From Haladaptatus salinisoli (lineage in GTDB: Archaea; Halobacteriota; Halobacteria; Halobacteriales; Haladaptataceae), in assembly GCF_020614375.1 (NCBI RefSeq), contig NZ_CP085333.1, positions 124,001-188,000 on the forward strand: DNA of 64,000 bases. Reading direction: 5' to 3'. The notes below the pieces were generated by a model. It had not been told where the DNA came from, did no database searches, and was given only the letters and a program-made list of their open reading frames with translations. Below are positions 25,622 through 42,975 of this stretch, in pieces (the stretch's first letter is position 1; each line of letters opens with the position of its first letter). Position numbers and translations under genes: made by a program.

Positions 25622-25676
25622 TAAACTACCCTACTTCGCTCGGTCTGACGACCTCGCTCGTCGAGGGTAGGGCTTT
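25622..25676 (-). mobile_element. Right end of the tnpB element (hairpin)
   Basis: The minus strand reads GAAAGCCCTACCCTCGACG, AGCGAGGTCGTCAGACCGAGC, GAAGTAGGGTAGTTTA. It has the same core and terminus as 7392-7444 and 19066-19116, with compensating differences in the outer stem. Confidence 0.65.
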
Positions 25677-27240: not shown

Positions 27241-27307
27241 ACTTCCGCATAGATCGATAAGCGGAAGTGCACCCACCCCGGGACCCCCGAAGCAATCTAT
27301 GCGCAAC
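27241..27307 (+). repeat. Hairpin repeat, copy A
   Basis: A perfect 8-bp stem (ACTTCCGC, loop ATAGATCGATAA, GCGGAAGT) is followed by the GC-rich box GCACCCACCCCGGGAC and a CAATCTATGCGCAACG tail. It matches copies B-F in layout. Confidence 0.75.
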
Positions 27308-27324
27308 GCTTTCTCACCCTGAAT

Positions 27325-27445
27325 CAGAGGGAATTGTAACGAACGGCTCGCACGCTATCGGTGCTCGAAGGTGGTCACACAGCCTGAGAACTACAGTTGC
27401 GGCGACTGCGGCGGATTGCTCCGTGTCAAGGGCGCCACCGAATGA
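27325..27445 (+). pseudogene. C-terminal remnant of a SprT-like protein
   Basis: About 38 codons read NERLARYRCSKVVTQPENYS followed by CGDCGGLLRVKGATE and a stop: the zinc-ribbon tail of SprT-like metalloproteins. The catalytic part is missing and a stop lies immediately upstream. A GTG at 27371 could in principle start a 24-residue peptide. The stop overlaps the start of the next small zinc gene (ATGA). A fuller but broken relative is at 41374-41943. Confidence 0.6.
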
Positions 27446-27633
27446 CGCGCAACTACCGCTGTCCGCGCTGTCTGCAGGTTATTGGGACGATGACGGTGGG
27501 TGGTTCGTCGTGGGTCCATCTGCGTCCGTGCGGGCACCGTCTTGTTACTCCTGATGCCGTGCTTGCAATGGGCGATCTGCACCCACCCCGCCCTGATATG
27601 TGGGTGACGGATTTCCTTGCTGCATCTCACTGA
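27442..27633 (+). CDS. Small Cys/His-rich protein, putative zinc finger
   Basis: 63 residues from the ATG at 27442, overlapping the preceding remnant's stop by four bases. MTRNYRCPRCLQVIGTM and LRPCGHRLVTP supply a CxxC and a CGH, enough for one zinc site. No family is recognised. The ATGA overlap suggests it was translationally coupled to the intact ancestor of the SprT remnant. Confidence 0.45.
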   Translation: MTRNYRCPRCLQVIGTMTVGGSSWVHLRPCGHRLVTPDAVLAMGDLHPPRPDMWVTDFLAASH

Positions 27634-27796
27634 CTCCTGCGAACGCTTTCGGCCCTCATTTGTTCTTTTCAAGCGGCAGAGGGGCGTGCTCTAGTTAGTA
27701 TAATATACTAACTTCTGTGTATCCACCTTGGCTTTGGCAGGCGACTGTTTGCAGCGGTTTCGAGCGGAGGTTCGTGTATGTCTACTCTTTCTCTAC

Positions 27797-28507
27797 TCAG
27801 CGTTTCGTGAGAACTGCCCGATAGTAGTGTCCATTCTCACCCCGACGAATCTCAGCTACATCCCATCCGGTTCCAACCACGGCATCACGTAATCGACTTG
27901 GGCTTACTAACCGAAGTAACAGCGGTTCGCTCACATCGCCTTCGTATTCGAAGTGGTAGATGCGAAAGCCGAGCCCTGGTGCTGGATCAGCACGATAGCC
28001 AAAGAACTTGGGAGCGTGCTCATGATCTGGGTCGTTGCCGTCAATGATCGCTGTGGCATCGTCTGTTGTGACGTAGGAGAGATCGCCGAGAAACTGCCGA
28101 AGACCTCCTCTCGACCTAGCGGCTCTAACCTGCGTCCCGTGGGCGAACGCCGAGCGAAACCGGTTTTGTCCAAATGATTCTCGCAGGGCGAACATATCGG
28201 CCTGCCGTGCATCGTTCACACCCTGATCTCGTAACGTCACCACAAGATGCTCACTAATCTCGATTGCAACGGTCTCAAAGCGCTTTTGGAAATACAGTGA
28301 GTGCTGACCGACTCCAGCGCCCATATCGAGTAAGGGGCCTGCAAGCCATATGTCGTGCCAGTCATCCGTTGGCTCGAATCCGCCAAAATAATACTCTCCG
28401 ATTGGATGTTCGCGTGTTTCACCGCCACAGCGTTCGATGAGTGGTTCGGTTTGCTGGTCGAGATAGTAGTCGCGAATTGCACGACTGTATGGATCAGAGT
28501 CCATCAC
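27797..28507 (-). CDS. Class I SAM-dependent methyltransferase
   Basis: 236 residues. Motif I is LLDMGAGVGQHSLYF at ~59-73 and binds S-adenosylmethionine; VAIEIS near 80 is the acidic end of strand 2; ADMFAL follows. The C-terminal part (FRIYHFEYEGDVSEPLLLRL) is a beta-rich substrate region. The substrate is unknown. Two adjacent ATGs make the start slightly uncertain (28507 or 28504). It is a lone gene within the mosaic region. Confidence 0.78.
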   Translation of the reverse strand: MMDSDPYSRAIRDYYLDQQTEPLIERCGGETREHPIGEYYFGGFEPTDDWHDIWLAGPLLDMGAGVGQHSLYFQKRFETVAIEISEHLVVTLRDQGVNDARQADMFALRESFGQNRFRSAFAHGTQVRAARSRGGLRQFLGDLSYVTTDDATAIIDGNDPDHEHAPKFFGYRADPAPGLGFRIYHFEYEGDVSEPLLLRLVSPSRLRDAVVGTGWDVAEIRRGENGHYYRAVLTKR

Positions 28508-28547
28508 AGTGTGTCACAGACCATCATTTGTAATAAATTTATAATGA

Positions 28548-28670
28548 GTGGTGGTACCAACCAGCGAAGATCCATCATACAATGATCCACAGAGTGAGCT
28601 TGCGATTGACCTAGAAGAGACGCAAGATGACGACACTGAGCGGCTTGCTAAGCGGATGTTTGACGATTGA
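28548..28670 (+). CDS. Very small acidic protein
   Basis: 40 residues from a GTG at 28548: VVPTSEDPSYNDPQSELAI, then DLEETQDDDTERLAKRMFDD. The strongly acidic composition is typical of haloarchaeal coding sequence, and the frame stays clean. There is no family match. It precedes the barrel-like gene at 28735 and could be the small first gene of that pair. Confidence 0.35.
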   Translation: MVVPTSEDPSYNDPQSELAIDLEETQDDDTERLAKRMFDD

Positions 28671-28734
28671 CCCTGAACCTGTTTTTTCTTTTGATTGTCG
28701 AAACAGGTTAGTCGAAGATCCACCTGTACTATCT

Positions 28735-29052
28735 ATGGTTGATCCACCACGAGTCATACTGACCGTGGAAGAGAGTTATTCCACTGATCCAAAGTGTGGA
28801 TACGTCCGAATTCATCAGAAGGCTATCGACACACTTGAACTCAGAGCTGGTGATGCCATTACGGTTAAGCCCGAAGATCAGCAACCGCGCTCTGGGTTCG
28901 CGATTCGTCGACTCCCATGGTTCAAAGAGGGAATCATCTGTATTCCAGAAGCCATTCGAGATCGACTGAATGTCTCGGTGGGTGATACGGTCACTGTTGC
29001 TCATGAAAAGTATAGTCTTACTCCAGAAAGTCTCGATGACGAGATTCTATAA
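28735..29052 (+). CDS. Double-psi beta-barrel-like protein (AbrB/CDC48-N-like)
   Basis: 105 residues from the ATG at 28735 (MVDPPRVILTVEESYS). Two similar halves, GYVRIHQKAIDTLELRAGDAI and IICIPEAIRDRLNVSVGDTV, show the internal pseudo-repeat of a swapped-hairpin or double-psi barrel. Such barrels occur as AbrB-like DNA-binding antitoxins or as the N-domain of CDC48-type proteins. No ATPase is attached, so an AbrB-like regulator is the likelier role. Confidence in the exact family is modest. Confidence 0.5.
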   Translation: MVDPPRVILTVEESYSTDPKCGYVRIHQKAIDTLELRAGDAITVKPEDQQPRSGFAIRRLPWFKEGIICIPEAIRDRLNVSVGDTVTVAHEKYSLTPESLDDEIL

Positions 29053-29220
29053 CGGTGGTATTCACCTTTTGATAGCCTGTTTTACTAGCAATGAATAATC
29101 GAAGTTTCGGTCAAACGCAGGAATAGTACGAAGCGATGTACAATCTACGCTGAAGAACGAACGTGGGTGGATAGGAGTGAAAACGGGCTCGTAGTATTTC
29201 ACTCAAAATGAGGAGTATTC

Positions 29221-29290
29221 ACTTCTGCTGAAATCTATAATCGGCAGTGCAACCACCCAGGGGCCCCGAATCGATCTGTGCGGAATTCGT
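29221..29290 (+). repeat. Hairpin repeat, copy B
   Basis: Imperfect stem (ACTTCTGC against CGGCAGT) with TATAA in the loop, then GCAACCACCCAGGGGCCCCG and CGATCTGTGCGGAATTCGTG. It is located 54 bases before the membrane gene at 29344. Confidence 0.65.
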
Positions 29291-29343
29291 GGTGCGAATC
29301 TTACACCGGTAGCATTTCTATCAAGAGGATATTTTACCATCTT

Positions 29344-29694
29344 ATGAACACGCGAGTATGGCGAAGACGACTTAACGGGTGGGGACTCCTATTAGTCGGC
29401 GGCGTGGGAACGGTGTACTCAGTTAGTCAGTGGGGCTTAGATACACCGGTTATGACTGCGCTTTTCGGAATTTTTGCACTCAGTGGTGCTTTTACGGTTG
29501 GTGGACGGGAGAACGTCTATTACTATCTCCTCCCAGTTATGGGCGTACTTACATTTATCAAAACAGTTGGATACTATTTGATTTATGGGATTACGATGGT
29601 GACACTCGCGTTTCTCCTCCTCGGTACCGCGATTGTCGCTGTAGGAGTCCAAGCGTATCGGAAGTCGCAGCAAGACACTGATGCGGAGACATAA
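29344..29694 (+). CDS. Small four-helix membrane protein
   Basis: 116 residues from the ATG at 29344 (MNTRVWRRRLNGWGLLLVGG). Four hydrophobic segments (about 12-28, 37-50, 60-77 and 83-104) with a positively charged N-terminus and an acidic C-terminus. No family is recognised. Hairpin repeat copy B lies upstream. Confidence 0.55.
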   Translation: MNTRVWRRRLNGWGLLLVGGVGTVYSVSQWGLDTPVMTALFGIFALSGAFTVGGRENVYYYLLPVMGVLTFIKTVGYYLIYGITMVTLAFLLLGTAIVAVGVQAYRKSQQDTDAET

Positions 29695-29759
29695 ATAAGT
29701 GATATCAAAATTTTGTATTATCGTTCTTTTTCCTGTCCAACACATCCTCTTTATCCAGC

Positions 29760-30020
29760 ATGACGCGATCTTTTATCGCCTTAGTCCATAACCGACAGTG
29801 GAATCCCCTGATCACCTTTGATCGAATTTCTGGCCAGTTCGTGGCACATATTAGCGTGCCCACTGCCGTTGAGTTCGATGATCAAAGTCGGCTACTCCGC
29901 ATAATCGGTGAAAAAGTAGTCTATGTTCTGGGATTTCGGCGTGTTTCAAGCTGCGTGATTGGTTTGATAACCAAACTAGAACGTGTGACGGCAGCAAGGT
30001 CGATTTCTCAGAATCGGTGA
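29760..30020 (+). CDS. Doubtful ORF ending in repeat C/D sequence
   Basis: 86 codons from an ATG at 29760. Its last ~20 codons (LERVTAARSISQNR) lie in a block repeated at 35582-35700, where the same peptide text appears in frame. The body (FVAHISVPTAVEFDDQSRLL) is not recognised. It could be a decayed gene whose end is the shared block. The rest of 29695-30215 has no other gene. Confidence 0.25.
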   Translation: MTRSFIALVHNRQWNPLITFDRISGQFVAHISVPTAVEFDDQSRLLRIIGEKVVYVLGFRRVSSCVIGLITKLERVTAARSISQNR

Positions 30021-30108
30021 TTTTGGGTGATTTACTTCTTGTGGGCATAGTAAGCGGAAGTGGATCACCCTCGGTACCTCCATTTCGATCTGTGCGGAGT
30101 TCGTGGCG
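29957..30108 (+). repeat. Hairpin repeat, copy C, with 5' extension
   Basis: Bases 29957-30035 match 35582-35660 (about 85 percent by eye; both contain GAACGTGTGACGGCAGC). Then come the stem ACTTCT...GGAAGT, the box GGATCACCCTCGG and the tail CGATCTGTGCGGAGTTCGTG shared with copy B. DUF5789 starts 108 bases downstream. Confidence 0.7.
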
Positions 30109-30215
30109 CGTATGCATCGATTTCAGGTGGGTCTGTGAAGGTGGTTGTTGTCCTGGAGGTGGTCATTTCGATGAGCGACCCAACCGTTATCCGAATCGGT
30201 CTCCTACTATAAGGT

Positions 30216-30518
30216 ATGACAGATGACGAAGAGCGACACCAGTCAGAGCGAGAGGTAGAGGAGGTACGTAACCGTGCCGGTGAAGACGAACAGAAGCACG
30301 GCGACCCTAGTGCACAGCTTGGTGACCTTGATGAAGCACTCGAAACCCACGACTATCCAACCACGACGGATGAATTGGTCGAGGCCTATGGCGGCTATGA
30401 AATTGAAACGCAGGGTGGGACGGAATCCCTCGAGGAAGTGCTCGCTTCTACTGATAACCAAACGTACGACTCCGCTAATGATGTTCGAAGCCGGATACTA
30501 GGGCTAATACATCGCTAG
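30216..30518 (+). CDS. DUF5789 family protein
   Basis: 100 residues, very acidic. The conserved core is LDEALETHDYPTTTDELVEAYG, then GGTESLEEVLAS and ETYDSANDVRSRILGL-like text, the DUF5789 pattern of small haloarchaeal proteins. Function is unknown. It follows hairpin repeat copy C. Confidence 0.72.
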   Translation: MTDDEERHQSEREVEEVRNRAGEDEQKHGDPSAQLGDLDEALETHDYPTTTDELVEAYGGYEIETQGGTESLEEVLASTDNQTYDSANDVRSRILGLIHR

Positions 30519-30764
30519 TACAGACAGCTCAACTCCTCTGTCTCGCTAGTCGGGATTCTCTGGATCTGAGACGTTTCTCCTCTGAGTAGACAATATGGTC
30601 TTTGAAAACTGTCCCTAACAGTATCCATATGATGAGTGCCGACGAGTAAGAGGAGTTCAGTGAGGGGGACACTCGAGAACCCTAAAAGAGACATCGTCGC
30701 GGCTGACAGATCGTTCATCTCCAAACGACCTGACTGATACACTCTTCTGGGGAATCTACTATCC

Positions 30765-31790
30765 CTACCGTTGTGAGTCACGGAGGATGAGCGGTTCGAT
30801 TGCGAGCGTCCGCTTGGCGACCGTCACAATCCGCAGGACGTAGGCCGCAAATATTAGAAATGGGAGAAGCGTAATCGTGAACGCTACACCGATCGTCCAC
30901 GTCATATTTGCCACGCCAAGCGTGCTCCCAGGAAACGTGCCTCCGTCAACGACCGTGAGCATGATTCCAGCGACGACCAACGCTGGAATTGCTGCATAGA
31001 GAATCATCTGTGAGAGCGTGACAAGCTCCCATTCGAAGTACAGTGTCTTGATGTGTTCACGAGCTGGGCCGAACAGACTGAGCGAAGTCTTCAAATCGTC
31101 CAGAAGGGCGGTCTCATTGTCGCCGAGACTGTCTTCGTATTCGTTGGCGATTCGTTCGACTTGGAAGATTTTCCAGCTATAGTTGAAGTTAAGCGCGGCG
31201 AACAGTACATCAAAGGTTCCGAACGATGCCCCGTCAAGTTGATCGTGAACCGTTTCGGCATTGCCGATGAGACTGTCGGTGAATTCGTCAACCTCTTCGC
31301 GGAGCTGGTCATTGTTACTTTCCGATAGGCCGTCGCGGAGCACTTTGGCCCGTTGTTCGGCGGTGTCGATGATTTCGCTAAGAAACGCTGACGGATCTGC
31401 CGGACTAGGCGATCCAATTAATTCCTCAGTATAATCCCGGAAGTCCATCGAGTTCTCCATTCGTTCACGTTGCTCGCCAAGCGGGCCGTTCTCTTGAGAG
31501 AGGACCAGCTGGCCGATGGTGATGACGATTGTGGTGCCGGTGATGATTGCTCCGATCATCGTCGAGAACATCGTCTCAATTGTGTCACCAGCCCTGAGTT
31601 GTGGTTGCAAGGGTTGTGGAAGGGAGGTGACCGCCACAACAAACACCACGAACACAGCCAGTGCCAAGACGGCAGTAACCTGAAGCCGGTTCGAAGCGAG
31701 GAGCAGCCAAATTTTGAGTCGGCTCTCGCCCGCTCGCTCACGCATCGTGTTAGCCGTACTGATGTCGGAAGTCTCCGTACTCTCGCTCAC
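30765..31790 (-). CDS. Haloarchaeal four-helix membrane protein of unknown function
   Basis: 341 residues from a GTG at 31790. Two N-terminal helices (~37-55 and ~73-95) are followed by a ~150-residue soluble helical region (116-255, acidic, with FLSEIIDTAEQRAKVLRDGL) and two C-terminal helices (~263-282 and ~298-325). The layout resembles an uncharacterised haloarchaeal membrane family. The GTG start overlaps the stop of the DUF4177 gene by four bases, so the pair is an operon. Confidence 0.65.
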   Translation of the reverse strand: MSESTETSDISTANTMRERAGESRLKIWLLLASNRLQVTAVLALAVFVVFVVAVTSLPQPLQPQLRAGDTIETMFSTMIGAIITGTTIVITIGQLVLSQENGPLGEQRERMENSMDFRDYTEELIGSPSPADPSAFLSEIIDTAEQRAKVLRDGLSESNNDQLREEVDEFTDSLIGNAETVHDQLDGASFGTFDVLFAALNFNYSWKIFQVERIANEYEDSLGDNETALLDDLKTSLSLFGPAREHIKTLYFEWELVTLSQMILYAAIPALVVAGIMLTVVDGGTFPGSTLGVANMTWTIGVAFTITLLPFLIFAAYVLRIVTVAKRTLAIEPLILRDSQR

Positions 31791-32011
31791 AGCGGGTCAC
31801 CCTCATCGATACTTGCACCTGCCTCGACAGGGCGTTTGAACACGAGGAATTTTGTTCCGCCCCCCGTATAGTCGATCGTTTCAATGAGTTCCCAGCCGTC
31901 CTTCCCGTGAGCATTCAACTCGGCTTGGGGGTCTTCCGCCTCTTTTTTGCTTTCGCCTCGGTGTGGTCTAAGTGTCTTATACTCCCAGTGACTTGATTGT
32001 GGTTGACTCAT
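31787..32011 (-). CDS. DUF4177 family protein
   Basis: 74 residues. WEYKTLRPHRGESK, LNAHGKDGWELIETIDYTGG and TKFLVFKRPV match the short DUF4177 fold (a beta-alpha domain). Function is unknown. It is translationally coupled to the membrane protein downstream (GTGA overlap). Confidence 0.75.
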   Translation of the reverse strand: MSQPQSSHWEYKTLRPHRGESKKEAEDPQAELNAHGKDGWELIETIDYTGGGTKFLVFKRPVEAGASIDEGDPL

Positions 32012-32124
32012 TTACGTTTGGATGGACGCACCTCCCGGCCCTAAGAATGGTGGTAGCACCAGTTAGTCCGTCTGACCGATCCATGCACTGTTTCAGCAGG
32101 TGATTTATCAGCTACTGATTCAGT

Positions 32125-32340
32125 GGCTCTGTAGTTTCGCTAGGCGGAGGTCGATTTGGTGTATTTTGGCCAGTATATCTCCACATTGATTGCGTGATTT
32201 TTAGCCTTGTCCAGCGGTTCCCTGGTTGGATTTCAGAAAAACCGAGAGACGGCAATCGATTCGTGACATATATCTCTCTACTGACTGTTTAAGAGTGATT
32301 TCTCGCTAATTGTAGCACCGTCTAGCGAAACTACAGAGTC
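32125..32340. mobile_element. 216-bp MITE with 23-bp terminal inverted repeats and 8-bp target duplication
   Basis: The left end GGCTCTGTAGTTTCGCTAGG and the right end (reverse complement GACTCTGTAGTTTCGCTAGA) pair over 23 bp with two mismatches. GATTCAGT directly flanks both sides (32117-32124 and 32341-32348), a clean 8-bp target duplication. The interior has no gene. An end beginning GGCTCTGT with an 8-bp duplication suggests an IS6-family parent (inference). The right duplication contains the stop codon of the adjacent gene. Confidence 0.85.
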
Positions 32341-32343
32341 GAT

Positions 32344-32859
32344 TCAGTCACTCCGCTGAACAGCCGCTATGAGTTGGCTCTTCGGAAGCCACTCGTCGGA
32401 GAGAATGGAGGCATCGTCTCGGTTTTCAAACTCTCGACGTTTTTCACGAAGACGATTTTCCAGCCCTTCGCGGCGGTCGTCATCTGCCCCAGTGTTTTCT
32501 ATGCCGCGTTTGAGAGAGTGTATCCCGTGTGCGAGCCGCATGAGCGGACGAGCTGGCGCAGAATTCTCGAAAAGAATCGCATCCTCGGTTTCCCGGGTGA
32601 CGTGTCCAACGAACGTTGTCGGTGTAGATCTATCCATGACACGGACCTTCTTTTCAGCCAACCACTCCGGGATCTGGACGAACAGATCGTTTTCGCTGAG
32701 GAGACCTAACAATTGCCACAGTTGACGAGTATCTTGTTCGTTGAGTAGCCCCCGTTCTCGGGCTTCGTTAAGGGATACACTGTAGTCATTGAGAGTCTCT
32801 GAGTGCCGCTCACGAGCGAATGATTCGTAGTCGGTGTGGTCGGTAATCAGATCCGTCAC
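32344..32859 (-). CDS. Hypothetical haloarchaeal protein
   Basis: 171 residues, soluble and highly charged, not recognised. The N-terminal half (FARERHSETLNDYSVSLNEA) is helical; the middle has VRVMDRSTPTTFVGHVTRET with a possible small beta unit; the C-terminal half is a Lys/Arg/Glu helix. Its TGA lies inside the MITE target duplication, so insertion occurred right at the 3' end and may have spared or slightly altered the C-terminus. Confidence 0.55.
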   Translation of the reverse strand: MTDLITDHTDYESFARERHSETLNDYSVSLNEARERGLLNEQDTRQLWQLLGLLSENDLFVQIPEWLAEKKVRVMDRSTPTTFVGHVTRETEDAILFENSAPARPLMRLAHGIHSLKRGIENTGADDDRREGLENRLREKRREFENRDDASILSDEWLPKSQLIAAVQRSD

Positions 32860-33153
32860 TGTTCCTCACGGTAGCTTAGTTTCCCATCATCTATCTCTTC
32901 CGAGACTATGTCGTCCACTCCCTGATAGACGATCGTCGCCATGAACTACAGTTGGCGGGCCACGTCCATAACATGGTAGGTGATGGGTTCTGGACGAACA
33001 CACGTCTCCGAGGGCGAAAGAGTGATCCACGGCAACCACCAACCAGGATTCCTACACACCAGTCCCTTCGGACGAGTATAGATACCGCTCTAACAACGGT
33101 AGTCTGAAAAATGAATCCGTACCGTCCGTCACAGTGCAGTGACTGTGAGTAAC
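32860..33153. other. Gene-free stretch
   Basis: No gene or clear repeat is seen between the hypothetical gene's start and the 3' end of cspA. Confidence 0.4.
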
Positions 33154-33348
33154 TCAGGCGCGGACGACGTTCGTCGCGCGCGGACCCTTGGGTGCCTGTT
33201 CGATATCGAACTCAATGTCCTGTCCTTCTTCGAGATCCGGGCCGCCCACGTCTTCCATGTGGAAGAAAACGTCGTCGTCCGCGTCCTCAGTCGAGATGAA
33301 ACCGTAGCCGCCTGTATCGTTGAAGAAATCAACTTTACCGTTTGCCAT
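33154..33348 (-). CDS. cspA: Cold shock protein (CspA family)
   Basis: 64 residues from the ATG at 33348 (MANGKVDFFNDTGGYGFIST). The RNP1-like GYGFIS and RNP2-like VFFHM motifs for single-stranded nucleic acid are present; VGGPDLEEGQDIEFDIE and GPRATNVV complete the five-strand barrel. It acts as an RNA chaperone. A TATA box 27 nt upstream supports a leaderless start; a longer in-frame start at 33396 is therefore rejected. Confidence 0.9.
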   Translation of the reverse strand: MANGKVDFFNDTGGYGFISTEDADDDVFFHMEDVGGPDLEEGQDIEFDIEQAPKGPRATNVVRA

Positions 33349-33374
33349 TACAAACAATTGTACAACCGAATGAT

Positions 33375-33381
33375 GTATAAG
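33375..33381 (-). promoter_or_regulatory. TATA box of cspA
   Basis: The minus strand reads CTTATAC, 27 nt before the ATG at 33348, with upstream CGGAACC as a possible BRE. Confidence 0.5.
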
Positions 33382-33452
33382 GGTTCCGAGAGTCACGGTA
33401 CCGCGACCCGTGTTGTACGAACGTTGATTGGCCTTGCCATCCTACTAGGCGC

Positions 33453-33881
33453 ATGGCCGAGTTTCCAGACGAGCGACAGCTCGTACTACGAGCGCGATCC
33501 CGCTTGGAACAATGGACGAATAGTGCCCGGACGGCGGCATATGCTGAACTGTTCGACGGTGACGAGCCAATCCTCACCGCGGACGAACTCCGACTCCTCG
33601 ATGCCCTCGATTCTGAACTGGAACGACAGGGCGGCGATGGTGTCTGGGGAACCGACCAGTACGGAATCCACACGGCGGGAATCTCAAGTTCGGATACTTC
33701 ACTCGGAGTGGTCTGTGTCTATCACCCACAGATCACCACAGACTCCGTCCTTCGTGGAGCAGACGAACTCGACGACGAGACCGAAGAACGGCTCAACGTC
33801 GCACTCTGGCAATACAGTGAGCGTGTCGCAACGCTCATCGAAGCAAAACTCGACGAGTTCGTCCGCCGGACGCAGGGCTAG
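33453..33881 (+). CDS. Uncharacterised haloarchaeal protein (possibly DUF7539)
   Basis: 142 residues, acidic and soluble. Recognisable haloarchaeal blocks are ELFDGDEPILTADELRLLD, RQGGDGVWGTDQYGIHTAGI and GVVCVYHPQITTD. I associate these with a DUF of unknown function and am unsure of the number. Divergent from cspA, with which it is often neighbouring. Confidence 0.6.
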   Translation: MAEFPDERQLVLRARSRLEQWTNSARTAAYAELFDGDEPILTADELRLLDALDSELERQGGDGVWGTDQYGIHTAGISSSDTSLGVVCVYHPQITTDSVLRGADELDDETEERLNVALWQYSERVATLIEAKLDEFVRRTQG

Positions 33882-33929
33882 CCGCGCATTCTCGTGGTTC
33901 TTTGGCTTCTATTCGTAATGGAATCAAGT

Positions 33930-34946
33930 TCAGGGTTCAATCACGGCTCGAAACCGAACCTCGCTTTCCATCATACGTTCATATGCTTCAGCGGCCTCCG
34001 TTAGGTCGAATACCTCCACCTCGGGCGTAATATCACGAAGTGCACTGAATTCTAACGTATCCTGTGAATCACGGGCATGACCGGAAGCCCAGCCACGGAT
34101 CGTCCCACGATTTCCAACCAATGATGCTCCAGAGACATCAATAGGGTCGCCGGGGACACCAACAACGACGACTTCACCGTCCGTTCCCAAACCAGGGATG
34201 ATAGAAGAGATTGCCGTCGCACTCGGTGCTGTAGCAAGGATCACCATTGCGCCACCAAGTTCAGAGAGTACTTCCGCAGCATCTTCTGCATTCGCGTCGA
34301 TAAAATGATCAGCACCTAAATCGAATGCATACTCTTTTTTGTCTGTTCCGCGTGAAATTGCTACCGTCTCGAATCCTGCTTGATGAGCATACTGTACGCC
34401 AAGATGACCGAGGCCACCGATACCTTGTACGGCGACTAAATCACCTGGCTGAGCGTCGGTGTGTCGAAGGGCGTTGTAGGTCGTGATTCCAGCACACAGC
34501 AACGGTGCAGCATCAACTGGTTCGAGTTCGTCCGGTACTCGAGCGAGTGCCTCCGCGTTGATAGTAGCATATTCAGCGTATCCGCCATCGACCGTTATCC
34601 CATGGATGTCCTCATTTTCACATTGTTGAAACTCACCACGACGGCAAGCATCACAGACGAAGCAGTGACCGCCGTGCCAACCGGCACCGACACGGTCTCC
34701 TTCGGTCCACAGTTCTACAGCTGAACCAACGGAGTCCACACGTCCAACGATCTCATGCCCGGGGATTCGGGGGTAAGAAAGACCTGGGTAGCCACCCTCT
34801 TTCGCGTACGAGTCGCTATGGCAGACACCGCAGGCTTCGATCTCAACGCGAACCTCCGTGGCTTCCGGATTGGGGACTGTTCGGTCGACAAGTTCAAATG
34901 GTGCACCAGGTTCAGCTACCTCTATTGCGCGCATTGTGTCAGGCAT
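33930..34946 (-). CDS. Zinc-dependent alcohol dehydrogenase (MDR family)
   Basis: 338 residues from the ATG at 34946 (MPDTMRAIEVAEPGAPFEL); the frame is open to 35036 but the added residues are not family-like. Catalytic zinc ligands are C in ACGVCHSD and H in PGHEIVG; the structural zinc Cys cluster is CFVCDACRRGEFQQC. NAD(P) binding is by GIGGLGHLGVQYA. It oxidises an alcohol or reduces an aldehyde; substrate range is unknown. It overlaps in opposite orientation the degraded gene at 35041. Confidence 0.88.
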   Translation of the reverse strand: MPDTMRAIEVAEPGAPFELVDRTVPNPEATEVRVEIEACGVCHSDSYAKEGGYPGLSYPRIPGHEIVGRVDSVGSAVELWTEGDRVGAGWHGGHCFVCDACRRGEFQQCENEDIHGITVDGGYAEYATINAEALARVPDELEPVDAAPLLCAGITTYNALRHTDAQPGDLVAVQGIGGLGHLGVQYAHQAGFETVAISRGTDKKEYAFDLGADHFIDANAEDAAEVLSELGGAMVILATAPSATAISSIIPGLGTDGEVVVVGVPGDPIDVSGASLVGNRGTIRGWASGHARDSQDTLEFSALRDITPEVEVFDLTEAAEAYERMMESEVRFRAVIEP

Positions 34947-35040
34947 AGCATCATAGCTATCGGGCGCACTGTCAATAAAGATAGCTTCAGCGGAAGGAGA
35001 TGTTTTCAACACATCATTATGCGAATCAAACCCCATCCAG

Positions 35041-35583: not shown

Positions 35584-35700
35584 TTGGTTCTATGACCGAT
35601 ACAGAACGTGTGACGGCAGCGAGGTCGATTTCCCAAAATCGGCGATTTGAGGCGATTGACTGCCGGTTGAGAGTATAAGCGGCAGTAGATCACCTCATGT
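35582..35700 (+). repeat. Hairpin repeat, copy D, with 5' extension
   Basis: The extension matches 29957-30035. The stem is a perfect 7 bp, ACTGCCG / CGGCAGT (35659-35665 and 35680-35686), around a loop containing TATAA. Compared with copy A it carries a paired T-to-G and A-to-C change, that is, the stem is preserved by compensation. AGATCACCTC follows. Confidence 0.72.
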
Positions 35701-36010
35701 TAATCAACGAGCAGGAGACATCGTCTGGGAGTACAAAGGCGTGGATTTGCCCTATTCTGCCGACCGATTGAGCGTTCCTGAAGAATCCGGGAAAACAGTT
35801 CCCGGATGGCAACTCGACAATCGGACATCGAACGCCGGTGACGTTGTCGGAACTATCCGCAGTTTCGAGGGGTGGGCCTCCTACGTCTTCCCCACGTGGA
35901 TGAAGCTTCCTGAGTTACTAACGCTTGCTGCGAGCGGACTTGCGATCCTGGCGATAGTGGTTGACCTATCGATCTACGGTATTGCAACTCTGACTCAGTA
36001 CCGAAACTAG
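35701..36010 (+). pseudogene. C-terminal remnant, possibly of an arylsulfotransferase-like protein
   Basis: The frame has no proper start (it enters from repeat D). It reads RAGDIVWEYKGVDLPYSADR, then GWQLDNRTS, and ends with one membrane helix (LTLAASGLAILAIVVDLSIY). The VWEY text before a C-terminal membrane helix is seen in haloarchaeal arylsulfotransferase-like proteins; the match is partial. A GTG at 35741 could start an 89-residue product. Confidence 0.4.
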
Positions 36011-36086
36011 TCTTTTTCTCACAATCCTCGATGAGTGGCCAGCTGAGCAAATTCATCCGGAATGACGGTACTGTATCATGATTGAG

Positions 36087-36818
36087 TCAATCTATTTTTG
36101 CGATTTCAGACGACAGCGACGATCGAGTACCCAGAATATCGGATACTTGTGTCTCGGTGAGGAGCCGGATGAACGGTTCAACGTTCATGAGGAGCTTGTT
36201 CTCGGCTTTCCGGAGATGCTCCTCGAACGTTGCCCGGGCGATGTTTGTCTGTTCAGCCAGCTCCTTCGTCGATGCATCTCGCGGTTGACTGTAGTACCCA
36301 TTGTCCAAAGCCAGACGGAGAGCAGCGAGCTGCCTATCGGTAAGCCCAGCGAAGAGTCGATCGACAGAGAAGAGTGTGCTCTGAGGGAGCTGACGCTTCT
36401 CAATAGAGGTTTTTGAGAGGACGTCGATCTCACGAGATTCGTCTAGATCTTGTAAAACCCCCTGTATATCGCTCTCATCAAACCCAATCACCGTATAGTG
36501 TTCCCACCCTTGTCGATAGATGGTTGGTGGGGTGTACACACAGCTGTGGTTCTGAAACCGCTTGATAATGGAGTCCTCAATCGGACATTTACACGACTGT
36601 GCTACCACGTACAGCCCATCATCGTCGGTTGTACTGTGCAAGACGTCTCCGATGTGCTGAATTTCCTCAAGAAGATCCTCGGATGGTGCCGTTGTGCTTG
36701 ACAGCTCTAAAACTTGGCAATCGTGGTGATGCCACTCACGGATTGTGACGTCCGGAAATCGCTCAGAGAACTCTCGGTATGGGCATTCGTGACGGATTTT
36801 AAATGAGGTCTCGTACAT
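36087..36818 (-). CDS. HTH_10 (bacterio-opsin activator-type) transcriptional regulator
   Basis: 243 residues. The N-terminal ~150 residues form an uncharacterised sensor with Cys/His residues (HECPYREFSERF, HHHDCQVLEL, CKCPIEDSI) that could bind metal or thiols. The C-terminal HTH_10 lies at ~165-235: LTDRQLAALRLALDNGYYSQ, then STKELAEQTNIARATFEEHL. It is divergently placed next to two rhodanese genes, so regulation of that sulfur module is a reasonable inference. Confidence 0.82.
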   Translation of the reverse strand: MYETSFKIRHECPYREFSERFPDVTIREWHHHDCQVLELSSTTAPSEDLLEEIQHIGDVLHSTTDDDGLYVVAQSCKCPIEDSIIKRFQNHSCVYTPPTIYRQGWEHYTVIGFDESDIQGVLQDLDESREIDVLSKTSIEKRQLPQSTLFSVDRLFAGLTDRQLAALRLALDNGYYSQPRDASTKELAEQTNIARATFEEHLRKAENKLLMNVEPFIRLLTETQVSDILGTRSSLSSEIAKID

Positions 36819-36913
36819 CGGTGTAGTGAAATACTGTCCGGTATCGTATATAGACTACCGGTTATAGCTGGTGTTGTCGGCGATAAAATCGTTGTACTAG
36901 CTAGGAAAGAGTG

Positions 36914-37237
36914 TTACTCTGAACTTTGGTTCCATCCTTCGAGTCCGTTTTCGAGCGCCTTTGCATCGTATCCTTGCTCGCGAAGCATGTTTGCAGTCTC
37001 CCCCGAGACATGGCCCGCATCGCAGACCGTGACAATTTCAGCATCGGCGGGAAGATCATCCAACAGTTTCAGTGCCTCGTCGACATTTCCAGACAGTAAT
37101 GCTTCTCGAACGGGAAGATTCTCACTCCCTTCGATGCGCTCTTCTTCATAATCTTCTGGTGAGCGGATATCTACAATTCGAACATCAGCGTCGTTCTGAA
37201 GTCGGGTACGAAGTTCTTCGGGGCTAATTCCAGCCAT
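36914..37237 (-). CDS. Single-domain rhodanese
   Basis: 107 residues from the ATG at 37237. The rhodanese fold has VRIVDIRSPEDYEEERIEGS and the active-site cysteine in VTVCDAGHVSG (C72 from this start), followed by LREQGYDAKALENGLEGW. It moves sulfane sulfur (persulfide) between acceptors. The active-site loop CDAGHVS is typical of prokaryotic single-domain forms. It is divergent from the rhodanese-MBL gene across an ~90-bp shared promoter region. Confidence 0.85.
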   Translation of the reverse strand: MAGISPEELRTRLQNDADVRIVDIRSPEDYEEERIEGSENLPVREALLSGNVDEALKLLDDLPADAEIVTVCDAGHVSGETANMLREQGYDAKALENGLEGWNQSSE

Positions 37238-37328
37238 CGCCAAGTACTACACAGGTGAGGTAATTAGAGGTGATGCCAGTTATAGCTGGCAGTGCTGATA
37301 TAGCGATGTCGAAGCTACCTAGTAGGTG

Positions 37329-38435
37329 ATGGCAGAACTCGCCCCAGAGGATCTTGCGGACCGATTGGAGGACGGTGACAGTCAACCCCTTATTCTCGAT
37401 ATTCGGCACGAAGATGAGTTCGAGAGCTGGCATATCCCGGACAGCGTCAATATCGATGTCTACGACACATTAAAAGAATCACCCGAGCAAGCACAATCGG
37501 CACTCGAAACACTACCACAAGATAAAGAGATCGTTACCGTCTGCGCAGCGGGAGCAGTCTCCGACACAGCGACGACTGTACTCACCGATCTCGGATATGA
37601 GGCGTCGACCCTTGAGGAGGGCATGCGTGGTTGGAGTCGTGTCCATCTCGCGGCAGAACTTCCAACCACTGGCCCTGAGCAGCTTCTTCAGGTGGCACGA
37701 CCGGGAACCGGATGTCTTTCGTACGTTCTCATCGATGACGGCGAAGCAGTTGTCGTCGATCCAAGCCAGTACACACAGAACTATCTCGACCTAATTGATG
37801 CCCACGGAGCAACGCTAACGGCGGTTCTCGAAACACACGCTCATGCCGATCATATCTCCGGCGCACAGGAACTCGCTGAGACTCACGACATCCCTCACTA
37901 CCTCCACCGTGCCGATGCTGGTGCTCTCACGTCGATCACCACACTCACTGATGGGCAGGTGCTCTCCATCGGCTCATTCGAGATTGAGGCCATCCATACG
38001 CCTGGCCATACGGAAGGAAGCGTTACGTTCAACGTGGATGGGGAGACCCTCCTAACCGGTGATACACTCTTCCTCGAAAGCGTCGGTCGCCCTGACCTTG
38101 AGGGTGGAAACGAGGAAGCCATCCGTGGACGTACACAAACGCTATTCAACAGTCTGCAGCGGATCCTCGGCCAGTCAGACGACCTCTTGGTTCTCCCCGC
38201 CCACGATCCAGGTGCGCCCGAGCCACCGACGACCGCCTCTCTTCACGACGTCCGTGAGCATAACGAGGTCTTGGAATACGATCAGGAGGGATTTGTTGAA
38301 GCGATCACTGCAAATATCCCTGAGACACCGCCCAACCATGAACAGATCAAACGTGTGAACACCGGAAAAGAGAACGTCGAGGACGAAGAGGCTCGGCAAC
38401 TCGAACTCGGCCCGAATCAGTGTGCAGCAAACTAA
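37329..38435 (+). CDS. Rhodanese-metallo-beta-lactamase fusion (persulfide dioxygenase-like)
   Basis: 368 residues from the ATG at 37329. The N-terminal rhodanese (~1-105) has the active Cys in VTVCAAGAVSD. The C-terminal MBL fold (~115-330) has HAHADH (starting near 170), HTPGHTEGSVTF and TGDTLFLESVGRPDL, typical of ETHE1-like persulfide dioxygenases with a single Fe site. It would oxidise persulfide to sulfite with the rhodanese handling the product or feeding substrate. The order is the reverse of many fusions (MBL first). The MFS gene starts eight bases after its stop. Confidence 0.85.
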   Translation: MAELAPEDLADRLEDGDSQPLILDIRHEDEFESWHIPDSVNIDVYDTLKESPEQAQSALETLPQDKEIVTVCAAGAVSDTATTVLTDLGYEASTLEEGMRGWSRVHLAAELPTTGPEQLLQVARPGTGCLSYVLIDDGEAVVVDPSQYTQNYLDLIDAHGATLTAVLETHAHADHISGAQELAETHDIPHYLHRADAGALTSITTLTDGQVLSIGSFEIEAIHTPGHTEGSVTFNVDGETLLTGDTLFLESVGRPDLEGGNEEAIRGRTQTLFNSLQRILGQSDDLLVLPAHDPGAPEPPTTASLHDVREHNEVLEYDQEGFVEAITANIPETPPNHEQIKRVNTGKENVEDEEARQLELGPNQCAAN

Positions 38436-38443
38436 CGAGAGCG

Positions 38444-39739
38444 ATGGCACTAGAAAATTCATCCAAATATACGCAGGGCATTCGTGAGCACCTTTCGCAG
38501 TTTTCCCTCCACGTTGTACTCGTATTTGCGACGGGACTGACCATTGGATCCGAACGTGCGGTCGTGCCTATCTTGGGCCGTGACGTTCTCGGTGTCAAGT
38601 CGCTCTTCGTCATTGGTTCGTTCGTCGTTTCCTTTGGAATTGTGAAATCGCTGATCAACCTCTATGCTGGCAAATGGGGCGAAGAGTATGGTCGTAAGCC
38701 CGTGCTCATCCTGGGATGGGCGACCGCACTCCCGTTGCCGGTCATTTTGATTTTCGCGCCAAACTGGTGGTGGATCACTATCGGGAATATCCTGCTCGGC
38801 GTCAATCAGGGACTCACCTGGAGTATGGCAGTGAACGCGAAAATTGATCTTGCAGGGCCAGATCAGCGTGGTCTCGCCGTCGGCATTGATGAGGCGTTCG
38901 GGTACACTGGTCTTGCGGTCGGTGCGTGGATTACCGGCGCGATCGCCGCTCAGACGAGCCTTCGCCCACAGCCGTTCTACTTCCTCGCTGTCGTAGTGGT
39001 GCTGGCATTTCTCATCTCGATCACCCTCGTCAAGGAGACGGTTCAGTACGCACTGGCAGAGGGTGACGAGGACCATCACGACGCGAATTTGCCGTTCAAC
39101 GAAGTGCTGAAGCGAGCGACCTATGGTGATCGAACATTATTTGCGGCTGCACAGGCGGGTCACATAGAGAATTTCGTTGATACGTTGTTCTGGATTGGTG
39201 TCCCGCTCTACCTCACGAGTCAAGGGTTGGGTATCGCGGCTGTTGGTGTTGTCGTTGGCGTCCACAGTGCGATGTATTTCCTCCAAATCGGGACTGGAGG
39301 GCTTGCAGATCGAATCGGTCGGCGACCGCCAGTGATTGCGGGCATGTTTGTGGCTGGTATCGGTGTCTTAGGGATGACAGTCGTCGACGGATATCTTCTG
39401 TGGGCGGTAATGGCGGGTATTTCGGGCGTTGGAATGGCGTTGCTCTATCCGAATCTGATGACGGTTCCGGGAGATGCGGCACATCCAACGTGGCGTGCGT
39501 CTGGCATGGGTGTTTACCGGATGTGGCGTGACTCTGGCTATGCCGTCGGAGCGATTCTGATTGGGCTTGCGATGCAATTCGTGAACATCGAAGCTGCCTT
39601 CTATATGACCGGGGTGTTAATGTTCGTCTCCGGCGGCCTTGTGTACCTCTGGATGGAAGAGACGCACCCCGACTTCGGAACGCACGAACCGCCTGCGCCA
39701 GCAACTGATGTACCTGATCAACTCGTTACCGAGGACTAG
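38444..39739 (+). CDS. MFS transporter
   Basis: 431 residues from the ATG at 38444, with 12 hydrophobic helices. The MFS signature between helices 2 and 3 is YAGKWGEEYGRKPVL, with a second-half echo GGLADRIGRRPPVI. It starts eight bases after the rhodanese-MBL gene, so the two form an operon. By context it may export or import a sulfur oxyanion or related compound; sequence alone gives no substrate. Confidence 0.85.
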   Translation: MALENSSKYTQGIREHLSQFSLHVVLVFATGLTIGSERAVVPILGRDVLGVKSLFVIGSFVVSFGIVKSLINLYAGKWGEEYGRKPVLILGWATALPLPVILIFAPNWWWITIGNILLGVNQGLTWSMAVNAKIDLAGPDQRGLAVGIDEAFGYTGLAVGAWITGAIAAQTSLRPQPFYFLAVVVVLAFLISITLVKETVQYALAEGDEDHHDANLPFNEVLKRATYGDRTLFAAAQAGHIENFVDTLFWIGVPLYLTSQGLGIAAVGVVVGVHSAMYFLQIGTGGLADRIGRRPPVIAGMFVAGIGVLGMTVVDGYLLWAVMAGISGVGMALLYPNLMTVPGDAAHPTWRASGMGVYRMWRDSGYAVGAILIGLAMQFVNIEAAFYMTGVLMFVSGGLVYLWMEETHPDFGTHEPPAPATDVPDQLVTED

Positions 39740-39860
39740 GCGTAGCTGTCTACTACGCAAAGGATCTTCGCATGTCCTAATGTAGTACAGTTGCGACAGG
39801 TCGAGACGACAACGAGACTACGTATCGTAAGCAATCGAACGATCCCACTCCACCGAACAT

Positions 39861-40223
39861 ATGATCTACATGGATCACGCAGCAACGACGTATACTTCCA
39901 CTCGAATACCCGTTAAGTCGGCGGGGAAAATCCACGTCGACATAGACGACCTCAGCTTGGATCTGGTGAGTTTGAGCGCCCACAAGTTCTACGGCCCGAA
40001 CGGCGTGGGCGCACTCTACGCCCGCGACGGCGTCGAATTAGAATCACTTATCCACGGCGGTGGGCAGGAACGCGGCCTTCGCAGCGGCACCAAGAACGTT
40101 GCCGGTCTCGTCGGGATGGGGAAAGCCGCCGACCTCGCGATGGTGGTGTGTAGTGCACTTCCGCCTTGTGCAACATGGAGCAGTGAGACACATGGCTCCA
40201 ACCCATCCACTCTTCTTGGGTGA
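39861..40223 (+). pseudogene. Internally deleted cysteine desulfurase (NifS/IscS)
   Basis: [10 protein letters not shown] is the intact N-terminus, but after five residues the text jumps to [19 protein letters not shown] and [14 protein letters not shown], which contains the PLP lysine. About 170 residues are missing in between, and the C-terminus is lost after [14 protein letters not shown]. The deletion kept the frame. The product cannot bind cofactor normally. Confidence 0.75.
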
Positions 40224-40310
40224 GTGTATTCTCACCTGAACTGATAAGCGGAAATGGATTCAGCTGGGTCGCCGCCCTCGGGGAAGCACGAAATTTGTTC
40301 GGAGAGGACT
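40157..40310 (+). repeat. Hairpin repeat, copy E (weak)
   Basis: GATAAGCGGAAATGGATTCA at 40243-40262 resembles the right arm and box of the family. The only matching left arm, ACTTCCGC, is 83 bases upstream at 40157. CCCTCGGGG follows at 40275. It is degenerate but has the same orientation as the others. Confidence 0.4.
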
Positions 40311-40367
40311 GAACTGGATGGCATCGGGGAACATCTTTACACGATGGGCCACCTATCTAGCGGTGTG

Positions 40368-40646
40368 ATGACCCAGAGATCCGCCCGGATCGTCCGGGAG
40401 CTGCACGATGAACCTCACATCGAGGGCAGCCGTCTCACCGTCCGATACATCAAAGAGCGCGTCGAAGGGCTTAGTCTGGACCCTCAGACCGTTGCCGATC
40501 GTCACAATCTCGACGTGGCCGACGTGTACCACGCCCTCGCGTACTACTACGACCACCCCAAGGAGATGCTAAAGGTCGAGCAGCGCCGTCAGGCGCGCAT
40601 TGAGGAGAGTGCCGAGACGGCAATTACTGGCCCGGAGGATCTGTGA
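40368..40646 (+). CDS. DUF433 antitoxin-like protein
   Basis: 92 residues from the ATG at 40368 (MTQRSARIVRELHDEPHIEG). The DUF433 helix-turn-helix core is SRLTVRYIKERVEGLSLDPQ and VADRHNLDVADVYHALAYYY. In haloarchaea these precede a DUF5615 PIN-like toxin, and that partner follows here but is truncated. An upstream in-frame ATG at 40344 is possible. Confidence 0.75.
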   Translation: MTQRSARIVRELHDEPHIEGSRLTVRYIKERVEGLSLDPQTVADRHNLDVADVYHALAYYYDHPKEMLKVEQRRQARIEESAETAITGPEDL

Positions 40647-40658
40647 GGGGTTTCCTCT

Positions 40659-40787
40659 GTGTGCTTTCGTGTCCTCCTTGACGAGAACGTTGAGCGGCAA
40701 GCAATGCAGATGCTGACCAAGATGGGTCACGACATCGAGATGGTCGTCGATGTCGACTCACTTTGTAGAGTATCGACAAGCGTCTGA
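40659..40787 (+). pseudogene. Truncated DUF5615 PIN-like toxin
   Basis: A GTG start 12 bases after the DUF433 stop gives FRVLLDENVERQAMQMLTKM and GHDIEMVVDVDSL, the N-terminal third of a DUF5615 toxin with its first acidic residues. It then runs into unrelated sequence and stops after 42 residues. The break falls at about 40755, exactly where a minus-strand ATPase remnant is also cut off. Confidence 0.65.
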
Positions 40788-41144
40788 AACGCCGAGAGGA
40801 CGGTGTCACTCGACGTAACGAGGTACGGAAATTCGTCGAGAGCGATCAGTCGCTTGCTGTCAGCGAGTGTTTCGCCAAGATAGTCAGCTACGTCGTGCCA
40901 GTCGTCGAGCCGTGGCACTCGCTCGTCGCGGTAGACTGCGGAGTTCGTCGGCGAGTTTCTCCTGCTGGACTTTTGCGGAGTCCTGTGTGGCGAGATGATA
41001 CAGATGCTCTTTCCCGTTACAGAATGCTTTGATGAGTTCGGTTTTTCCGACGCGCCGCCGACCATAGATGATGACGAGACTGAAGTAATCGCGCTCATAT
41101 TCGGTGTGGAGTACGTCGAGTTCGTCGTCTCGGTCGTAGAACAT
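40755..41144 (-). pseudogene. Broken archaeal AAA ATPase (DUF234-associated type)
   Basis: The ATG at 41144 opens MFYDRDDELDVLHTEYERD with the P-loop IYGRRRVGKTELIKAF. After ~40950 the frame changes, and the downstream text WHDVADYLGETLADSKRLIA and LDEFPYL (Walker B) is in another frame. The gene ends abruptly after LVDTLQSE at the 40755 junction, losing the C-terminal half. It cannot encode a functional ATPase. Confidence 0.7.
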
Positions 41145-41373
41145 TCGTACGATAATGCTCACTACGATAATGACTTAGTTGTTTTCACCAATTCTGGTTC
41201 TCTCTGTCTTGACTGTCTCCAATCGTGGGCCGAGAGCGATGGTTCGTTAGATGCCTGTTCTTCAGATCACCGTTTAGCGGCCAACATCTCTCAACTGATG
41301 TTTCGGTGCTTCTCATGCGTATTCGATGGTGAATGGGCGTTGTTCTTCGGTCAGTTTTCCTTCGACTACTATA

Positions 41374-41943
41374 TTAGGCAGTAGAAGAGCCGTCAGCCTC
41401 TTCGATACGCAGCAACCTGCCGCAATCGCCACAGCATTACTCGTCGAGCTGCGTGACTACCATTGAGCGGCGATAGCGCGGGAGTCACCTACCGCATTCA
41501 GTGCAGACCACCTATCAGTTCGGCGTCTTAAACCGCTCGCAGTAGTAGTGTCAAGCGCGTCGGTCCAACGGTCGAACGTTCGGCCGTGGTCAGCGTCGCC
41601 GAACTTATGGAACTGCCAGGCGTGAATGAGTTTGTACCGGACGATGGAACTGAATTGCTCCCACCCGTGTTTTGCGTAGGCCTTCCAGGTCAACGCAATC
41701 CCAATCTTGTCCGTTGTAGGGTCCTACTTCGTGACGCCTGCTTGCTGTTGTGCTCTGTGTGAGATCATCCAGTCGATCGTTTCGACCGGCAGATCAGAGG
41801 AATACTCGGTGGTGACGTCGGCCGCGTGCTGTTGTGTTCGGTCGAGGAGGGCTGTTGGTGTCTCGATTATCGGTCGAAGTATCCGCACTTTCCGTCAACG
41901 TTCGCTGGTCGGTGATGTCCGAAAACGTCGATTGGCGTGACAT
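41374..41943 (-). pseudogene. Decayed SprT-like metalloprotein
   Basis: The ATG at 41943 begins MSRQSTFSDITDQRTLTESA. Further on come TWKAYAKHGWEQFSSIVRY, KLIHAWQFHKFGDADHG and DRWTDALDTT. The SprT zinc site HExxH has become YKLIH, losing the first His and the Glu. A frameshift after DALDTT leads to the zinc-ribbon text CERFKTPN, VVCTECG, RYRRSMVVTQLDE and CCGDCGRLLRIEEAD, interrupted by four stops. It is clearly non-functional. Another C-terminal fragment of the family is at 27325-27445. Confidence 0.7.
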
Positions 41944-41955
41944 AGATAAAAAATA

Positions 41956-42333
41956 CTAGAGCGGTGGTTCGTTCGGCAGTTCCGCCAATCCTGTTTGCAT
42001 GCACGGCCAGCACGGGAAGCCACCGAGGCCGTCACAGTCGCAGCCTTCAGAGTCGACATCGTCTTTGTCCTTGGATGAGAAGACGTCGAGTGTTCCGTCG
42101 TCAGTTACGTTTTCGACGCCCGCCATGTGTTTGCAGAACGTGCTTAGGTGACCGTGGTGCGGGCAAGTGCAAGCCATCGCGTCATCGGTCACGTCGTCCA
42201 GCGTGACGACGTATTGCTGCTCAGCGGGGTTGTCGTGGCTCTCGTTGGTGACTTCCACTATTCCAGAGGGATCGGTGTTGAAGGAGAAGTCATCTACTGG
42301 AGATAGATTACAGGAAAAGCTCTTATATGGCAA
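41956..42333 (-). CDS. SWIM zinc-finger protein
   Basis: 125 residues. The SWIM motif is AMACTCPHHGHLSTFCKHM (CxCx7-8CxH). The preceding VEVTNESHDNPAEQQYVVTL is the usual beta segment. A second Cys cluster (EGCDCDGLGGFPCWPC) at ~97-111 is typical of haloarchaeal SWIM proteins. It may bind nucleic acid or protein. The N-terminus is shorter than in most relatives I recall. Confidence 0.72.
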   Translation of the reverse strand: MPYKSFSCNLSPVDDFSFNTDPSGIVEVTNESHDNPAEQQYVVTLDDVTDDAMACTCPHHGHLSTFCKHMAGVENVTDDGTLDVFSSKDKDDVDSEGCDCDGLGGFPCWPCMQTGLAELPNEPPL

Positions 42334-42368
42334 GAATAGTAGTCTCTGCTGTTGGTACTGGGTTTAGC

Positions 42369-42527
42369 TTACAAGATTCGTTGGGCGGCCCAAATGATAA
42401 CGGCAGCAATAATGAGCATGACGCCGATCCCTGACGTTGCTGGTTCTGGGAAAATAAAGAGAATAATACCAGCGAGAAGCAGTAGTCCTACGAGTCCGAG
42501 GCCAGCTATGTTACTGTTGCGCACCAT
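42369..42527 (-). CDS. Small two-helix membrane protein
   Basis: 52 residues from the ATG at 42527 (or 55 from 42536). Helices lie at about 7-26 and 33-49, separated by FPEPATSG. This resembles the short hydrophobic proteins common in haloarchaea. No function is known. Confidence 0.5.
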   Translation of the reverse strand: MVRNSNIAGLGLVGLLLLAGIILFIFPEPATSGIGVMLIIAAVIIWAAQRIL

Positions 42528-42601
42528 AGTTACCATATTTTGCCGGTAAAGATATGCATTTTGGCAGAGTGTTGAAGTATTGTCCAAATCTCACGGCGAT
42601 A

Positions 42602-42766
42602 CGCAAGTCAGAATTTCCTACAGCGACCGCTCAGTGGGTGGCGGATACGCTCGAGGTTGAGCGGTCGTCTGCGCATCGACGGCTTGAGGGGGTTACAGGA
42701 GGATGGGAAGGTTGAGCGAGGAAATTGAGTCTGCGAGTTGTTATCTGGTGGATTTCGGAGGAATAG
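42602..42766 (+). pseudogene. Winged-helix protein remnant
   Basis: Three short in-frame pieces on consecutive frames read TAQWVADTLEVERSSAHRRL, LQEDGKVER and LRVVIWWISEE, which together spell a winged helix-turn-helix (recognition helix ERSSAHRRL, wing DGKVER). Two frameshifts separate them, and no start is visible. Confidence 0.45.
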
Positions 42767-42932
42767 AGCAATAGATACCCTCCGAGAATTTTATACTGAC
42801 TAGTTTCGATTGACTCCGAGCGAAGGTAGCATCGTGGTGGCGAATTGCTGCCAGTATTGTGAGTGCTCCATAGAGTGATGCCGCCATGTCTGATAGACTC
42901 GTACTTTACACTGGAAGTGATGGTGTTTCGGT

Positions 42933-42975
42933 CACTTCTGCATAGATAAGTGGAAGTGGACCATCCCGGGGGTGA
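42933..42975 (+). repeat. Hairpin repeat, copy F
   Basis: A 9-bp stem (CACTTCTGC / GTGGAAGTG with two G-T pairs) around loop ATAGATAA, then GACCATCCCGGGGGTGAC. It lies 60 bases beyond the stop of the LTD gene. No further gene is seen in 42767-43034. Confidence 0.7.

Follow-up and report, generated by a model that had tools for sequence, protein, structure and literature searches.

The window analysed here, a 64,000-nucleotide stretch of Haladaptatus salinisoli DNA, lies on a 338-kb replicon (contig C7) of a 5.0-Mb genome and carries a dispersed family of short inverted repeats (Table 1). A sequence-only reading of the window had listed six shared-stem copies in the same orientation, here called sites A to F, and scans with a covariance model based on eleven copies and with a weight matrix place the family at these positions far above chance. 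Sites A to D are full 28-bp copies, site A being the top covariance-model match in its own genome; E and F are degraded, and two further sites, at 29772 and 40157, had been overlooked. The right flank of the former belongs to a five-member family. A CCACCC..GGGG box that had been ascribed to all copies turns out, together with the CGATCTGTGCG tail that had correctly been assigned to A, B and C, to be part of a right-flank family, RF1, which is complete in these three copies; E has a right flank of another family, RF3, and D runs into a truncated gene within about 16 nt. The segment to the right of site D (35702-36010) matches the 3' third of a gene of which an intact copy exists elsewhere in the genome (L080:4057-5343); the remainder of this gene was not found in the part of the window compared.

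Table 1. Repeat sites, flanks and cassettes in the window, and loci exemplifying the site upstream of the integrase gene.
Feature	Position	Strand	Description
Site A left flank, family L0	27030..27240	+	DDE-transposase element 3'-flank remnant, with TTTGATATAGC..TTTATA
Site A	27241..27268	+	28-bp 11-6-11 inverted repeat ACTTCCGCATA-GATCGA-TAAGCGGAAGT; weight matrix 35.5 bits
Site A right flank, family RF1 (CCACCCCGGGACCCCCGAAGCAATCTATGCG)	27269..27306	+	RF1 sequence match
Site B	29221..29248	+	Weight matrix 30.4 bits
Site B right flank, family RF1	29249..29285	+	RF1 sequence match
Weaker extra site, left end of cassette	29772..29799	+	14.9 bits; absent from earlier list
Complete ~262-bp cassette, no clear gene, left-flank family L1	29783..30061	+	Bounded by sites 29772 and 30034
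Site C	30034..30061	+	Weight matrix 24.7 bits
Start of cassette right of site C: RF1 flank and DUF5789 gene (30216-30518)	30062..30514	+	Homology
Site D (ACTGCCGGTTG-AGAGTA-TAAGCGGCAGT)	35659..35686	+	29.7 bits; left-flank family L1
Opposite-orientation extra site	40157..40184	-	22.1 bits; absent from earlier list
Site E, degraded, RF3-type right flank	40228..40255	+	13 bits; right arm alone well kept
Site F, degraded, centre shortened (24 nt)	42934..42957	+	Covariance-model match 49.6 bits; sequence
Upstream-type site, examples	L098-L101, L230, L198-L209		Upstream of integrase ATG

As defined by the weight matrix, the consensus site is ACTTCCGCTTA-N6-TAAGCGGAAGT, a 28-bp 11-6-11 arrangement in which the right arm is highly conserved, the left arm less strictly so and the centre free; the spacer is 5 bp in some copies. 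Core sites of tyrosine recombinases, dif among them, have this same 11-6-11 layout. A weight-matrix scan of 1.01 Mb of fetched Haladaptatus DNA yielded 205 non-redundant sites, the same scan giving 319 raw matches in real sequence versus seven in the reversed-sequence control. The copies had been thought to be limited to 16 kb of the window. This does not hold: the covariance model finds 37 matches in the genome, and the 23 strong ones all lie on contigs other than the main chromosome (p=4e-9). With up to two mismatches allowed, the consensus occurs in 9 of 9 Haladaptatus genomes (up to 94 copies per genome in the covariance-model search) and in a single sister-genus genome; a sample of 285 further Halobacteriales gave no match. 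A search of 84,980 species genomes found the exact consensus only in Haladaptatus and in one unrelated Bacteroidales assembly; viral contigs gave no exact match. The searches made here agree with the earlier view that no named family matches.

The arms of the repeat are inverted, copy D carries a paired change and family L0 has a promoter-like TTTATA box upstream, all of which could point to a structured RNA or a cruciform maintained by compensatory change, as had been proposed for copy D. The paired change is indeed present, as a combination of common arm variants. Across 161 distinct sites, however, arm pairing is 60.6% as observed and 60.7% with the 3' letters shuffled, so that the covariation which the sequence-only reading had itself named as the check is nil in a large alignment. 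Since, in addition, the whole window has no Rfam match at the gathering threshold and the arms are inherited from different neighbours (see below), the RNA reading fails, and we regard maintenance by compensatory change as extremely improbable. What stands of the original pair of suggestions, structured RNA or cruciform protein site, is an inverted-arm protein site resembling a recombinase core. Both the absence of covariation and the variant combination in D are as predicted for arms that are inherited independently.

Comparison of the fetched loci gave 86 cases in which a homology block of at least 200 bp stops at a site in both sequences, against a mean of 0.06 when the sites are shifted at random. 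Left- and right-flank families occur joined in many combinations. As judged by these alignments, left and right flanks are inherited independently and the site is the exact junction between them. At sites that share the left flank, the family-weighted identity is 0.74 for the left arm and 0.61 for the central hexamer; where only the right flank is shared the values drop to 0.47 and 0.37, respectively, close to the 0.47 and 0.34 of unrelated sites. The left arm and the hexamer travel with the left flank, which places the crossover, on the evidence of identity, at or just right of the boundary between the centre and the right arm. Site C provides an example: its left homologies stop at 30062-30064, and homology on the right to replicon C2 of the same genome starts at 30057, the cassette start listed in Table 1 being 85% identical to G000:C2 424435-424910, a locus that has another left flank. 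Mosaic junctions might also be produced by ordinary homologous recombination and decay acting on short dispersed repeats (e.g. transposon ends), given that repeats can mediate rearrangement and that transposase remnants lie beside some sites. Homologous recombination would, however, have very little length to work on in a diverged 28-bp repeat, and exchange falls on the same fixed boundary whatever the family or genome; we therefore consider this explanation unlikely.

The sites are arranged in arrays. Neighbouring sites within 5 kb share the same orientation in 76 cases and are opposed in 17 (p=4e-10; 67 and 13, respectively, within 3 kb); the median distance between sites is 1.4 kb. An interval mostly holds zero to two small genes of types common in haloarchaea (methyltransferases, RibD_C, HTH_10 and HalOD1 proteins, for example), nearly unbiased in orientation (60:44). 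RF1 is present at 101 of the 205 sites, almost always 15-16 nt past a right arm, and RF3 at 23; the left-flank families L0, L1 and L2 have 22, 22 and 15 members, respectively. The ~262-bp cassette of the window is also flanked by two sites on G001:C6, G001:C7 and G004:C9, with other neighbours there. Furthermore, two H. halobius replicons share a left and a right flank: on one replicon the two meet at a single site, and on the other they are separated by 13.8 kb that includes an array; this is the only such pair in a systematic search for empty and occupied sites, and the loci are paralogous, with 83-85% identity. No excised circle was found, and the small contigs considered (17.6 kb and 3 kb) were uninformative.

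Dispersed 11-6-11 sites, their same-orientation arrays, their role as junctions with a fixed exchange boundary and the presence of one cassette in differing neighbourhoods are thus established, and we think it probable that the repeats are the core sites of site-specific cassette recombination on Haladaptatus plasmids, an estimate that covers the cassette reading and excludes the assignment of the enzyme. A cassette would start with the right arm and 5' flank (RF) and end with the 3' flank (LF), the left arm and the central hexamer; cassettes would be aligned head to tail and would move via excision and reinsertion at the sites, presumably through the action of a tyrosine recombinase. The 17 of 93 site neighbours that point the opposite way speak against this model.

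Two kinds of transposon-related sequence were found near some of the sites. The L0 sequence corresponds to the 3' flank of an element with a DDE transposase, intact in H. halobius (553 aa; L136:1413-3074), the left flank of site A being homologous to the DNA 3' of this transposase (L136:3165-3400); in about ten copies the transposase stop codon lies at a near-constant ~300 nt before the site. IS1202-family elements keep a constant distance from pdif sites and a constant orientation relative to them (PMC10132070), and L0 may by analogy be an insertion sequence that targets dif-like sites. The sister-genus genome (G009) has two near-perfect sites (L183 and L197), the first of which has a transposase remnant of the L0 type to its left; the arrangement in this genome is possibly closer to the ancestral one.

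The second is an IS1341-type TnpB gene (25631-26734, minus strand) located about 500 bp from site A. Haloarchaeal palindrome-associated transposable elements (PATEs) and IS605-type elements have near-terminal palindromes and make no target duplication (PMC3119063), and the Haladaptatus sites resemble them in being dispersed plasmid palindromes with no inverted terminal repeats and no evident target duplication. The sites could, then, be ends or relics of IS200/IS605-type elements moved as single strands by TnpA, a reading that the nearby TnpB gene would also suit. The genome, however, contains 12 TnpB matches and a single match to TnpA (Y1 transposase), which is broken by stops, and neither the TnpA locus nor 11 of the 12 TnpB loci has a site within 1.5 kb; the sole exception is the window's own TnpB, where the site is on the 5' side of the gene. 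Unlike PATEs, the sites are therefore not associated with TnpA or TnpB in their own genome. As, in addition, RF1 almost always follows a site and not random DNA, we reject this candidate as quite improbable.

The best candidate for the recombinase is encoded within the arrays. Family L2 corresponds to the 3' end of a gene whose 201-aa product is a tyrosine recombinase (Pfam PF00589, E=3e-11), in which R45, K84, H147, R150, W174 and Y183 are conserved (R45 is changed in one copy) and which has little room for an N-terminal core-binding domain; a structure prediction was of low confidence (mean pLDDT 52) and was left out of the conclusions. A same-orientation site follows the 3' end of the integrase gene by ~23-25 nt in about 15 of the 18 Haladaptatus copies that retain this end, fragments included. 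Numbers of sites and integrase copies per genome are correlated, with genome size as a confounder (rho 0.87, n=9), and three genomes (G000, G002 and G004) have sites without an intact copy; H. caseinilyticus has an integrase that is intact. The gene is located inside the arrays, at no fixed end. Phage records gave one distant integrase only (27.7%), and small integrases encoded on haloarchaeal plasmids (for example Halobacterium salinarum PHS4 and Haloarcula marismortui pNG200) are of the same family (44-45% identity to the Haladaptatus integrase), their loci differing in having no ACTTCCGC-type site.

The integrase has a site of its own. A different 11-6-11 sequence (TTTCGTGTTT/TTGCACGTTT-N6-AAACGTGCAA) is located 115-130 bp upstream of the integrase ATG in nearly all orthologues, Haladaptatus included, across more than ten haloarchaeal genera. 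On an H. halobius plasmid (G003:C8) it occurs three times in the same orientation (142472, 144257 and 145314), upstream of a broken integrase gene. Paralogous integrase copies in other genera are homologous only over the stretch that the upstream GTGCAA-type site and the stop codon delimit; the exception is one pair lying in a long duplication. Orthologues in other genera (70-80% identity) have no ACTTCCGC-type site. Because the integrase has its own upstream site and its orthologues elsewhere lack the Haladaptatus one, its link to the dispersed sites is a putative one. We nevertheless rank it as the most likely enzyme, as a candidate whose chances we put somewhat below even. Integron integrases act on both attI and attC; that the 201-aa integrase may, by analogy, act on both of its site types is given the same, rather less than even, standing.

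Nearly balanced, in our estimate, is the prospect that the cassette system is the same and the recombinase another, the 201-aa integrase being a passenger that travels with its own upstream site in a multiplied cassette. Such a passenger would account for the conservation of the integrase's own site across genera and its small array on G003:C8, as well as for the orthologues that lack the ACTTCCGC-type site. Likewise, a search for hybrids of the two site types gave none that is convincing or clearly above the background from the palindrome that the two share: nearly all matches are ordinary ACTTCCGC sites. Against the passenger stand the regular position of a site after the integrase 3' end in Haladaptatus and the outcome of the search for other recombinase genes, none of which was found recurrently beside the sites.

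As interpreted here, cassette recombination at the Haladaptatus sites would work like an integron or a dif-module array, yet the system fails defining tests of both. As in integrons and CALINs (attC arrays; for archaeal integrons see PMC9668308), same-orientation sites lie 0.3-6 kb apart with small genes between them, in clusters (two or more sites separated by less than 4 kb); the site-internal sequence is variable, exchange occurs at a single boundary and a tyrosine recombinase is the candidate enzyme. Unlike in integrons, only 6 of the 205 sites contain the attC GTTRRRY core, the 201-aa candidate integrase scores 21.8 bits against a cut-off of 265 for the IntI model TIGR02249 (its best NCBIfam match is archaeal XerA, with 38.6 of 220 bits), an integrase platform at one end of the array is not evident, and the cassette genes are near-random in orientation. 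Exchange at a single boundary is compatible with the single-strand, one-strand-cut chemistry of attC sites and may reflect it, although it is no proof. With the dif modules of Acinetobacter plasmids (pdif, XerC/D; PMC13141974, PMC10132070) the system shares 28-bp 11-6-11 plasmid sites that flank exchangeable modules and, possibly, an insertion sequence at a fixed distance from the site. It differs in that pdif modules are bounded by alternating, opposite sites, in that the Haladaptatus arms are unrelated to the XerC/XerD consensus quoted in the same two papers, and in that the candidate enzyme is not XerCD and the hexamer follows one side.

Archaeal integrons with the canonical IntI and attC have been described in metagenome-assembled genomes (PMC9668308). 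Term searches found haloarchaea unmentioned in that paper and cassettes unmentioned in a review on tyrosine recombinases of archaea (PMC8371274). The cassette systems that we found described are integrons and Xer/dif modules. The fullest version of our interpretation, which we hold tentatively and think more doubtful than the integrase assignment by itself, is an independently arisen, integron-like haloarchaeal system in which a cassette-borne, catalytic-domain-only integrase with its own attI-like upstream site shuffles cassettes at one boundary of unrelated attC-like sites. Both the candidate integrase and the site fail to match those of integrons, so that standard integron searches are not expected to flag these arrays, large examples of which are carried by culture-derived Haladaptatus plasmid records. 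Cassette recombination would offer a route to gene exchange and mosaicism among Haladaptatus plasmids, and the question of whether an unrelated recombinase can evolve integron-like behaviour becomes testable in culturable strains.
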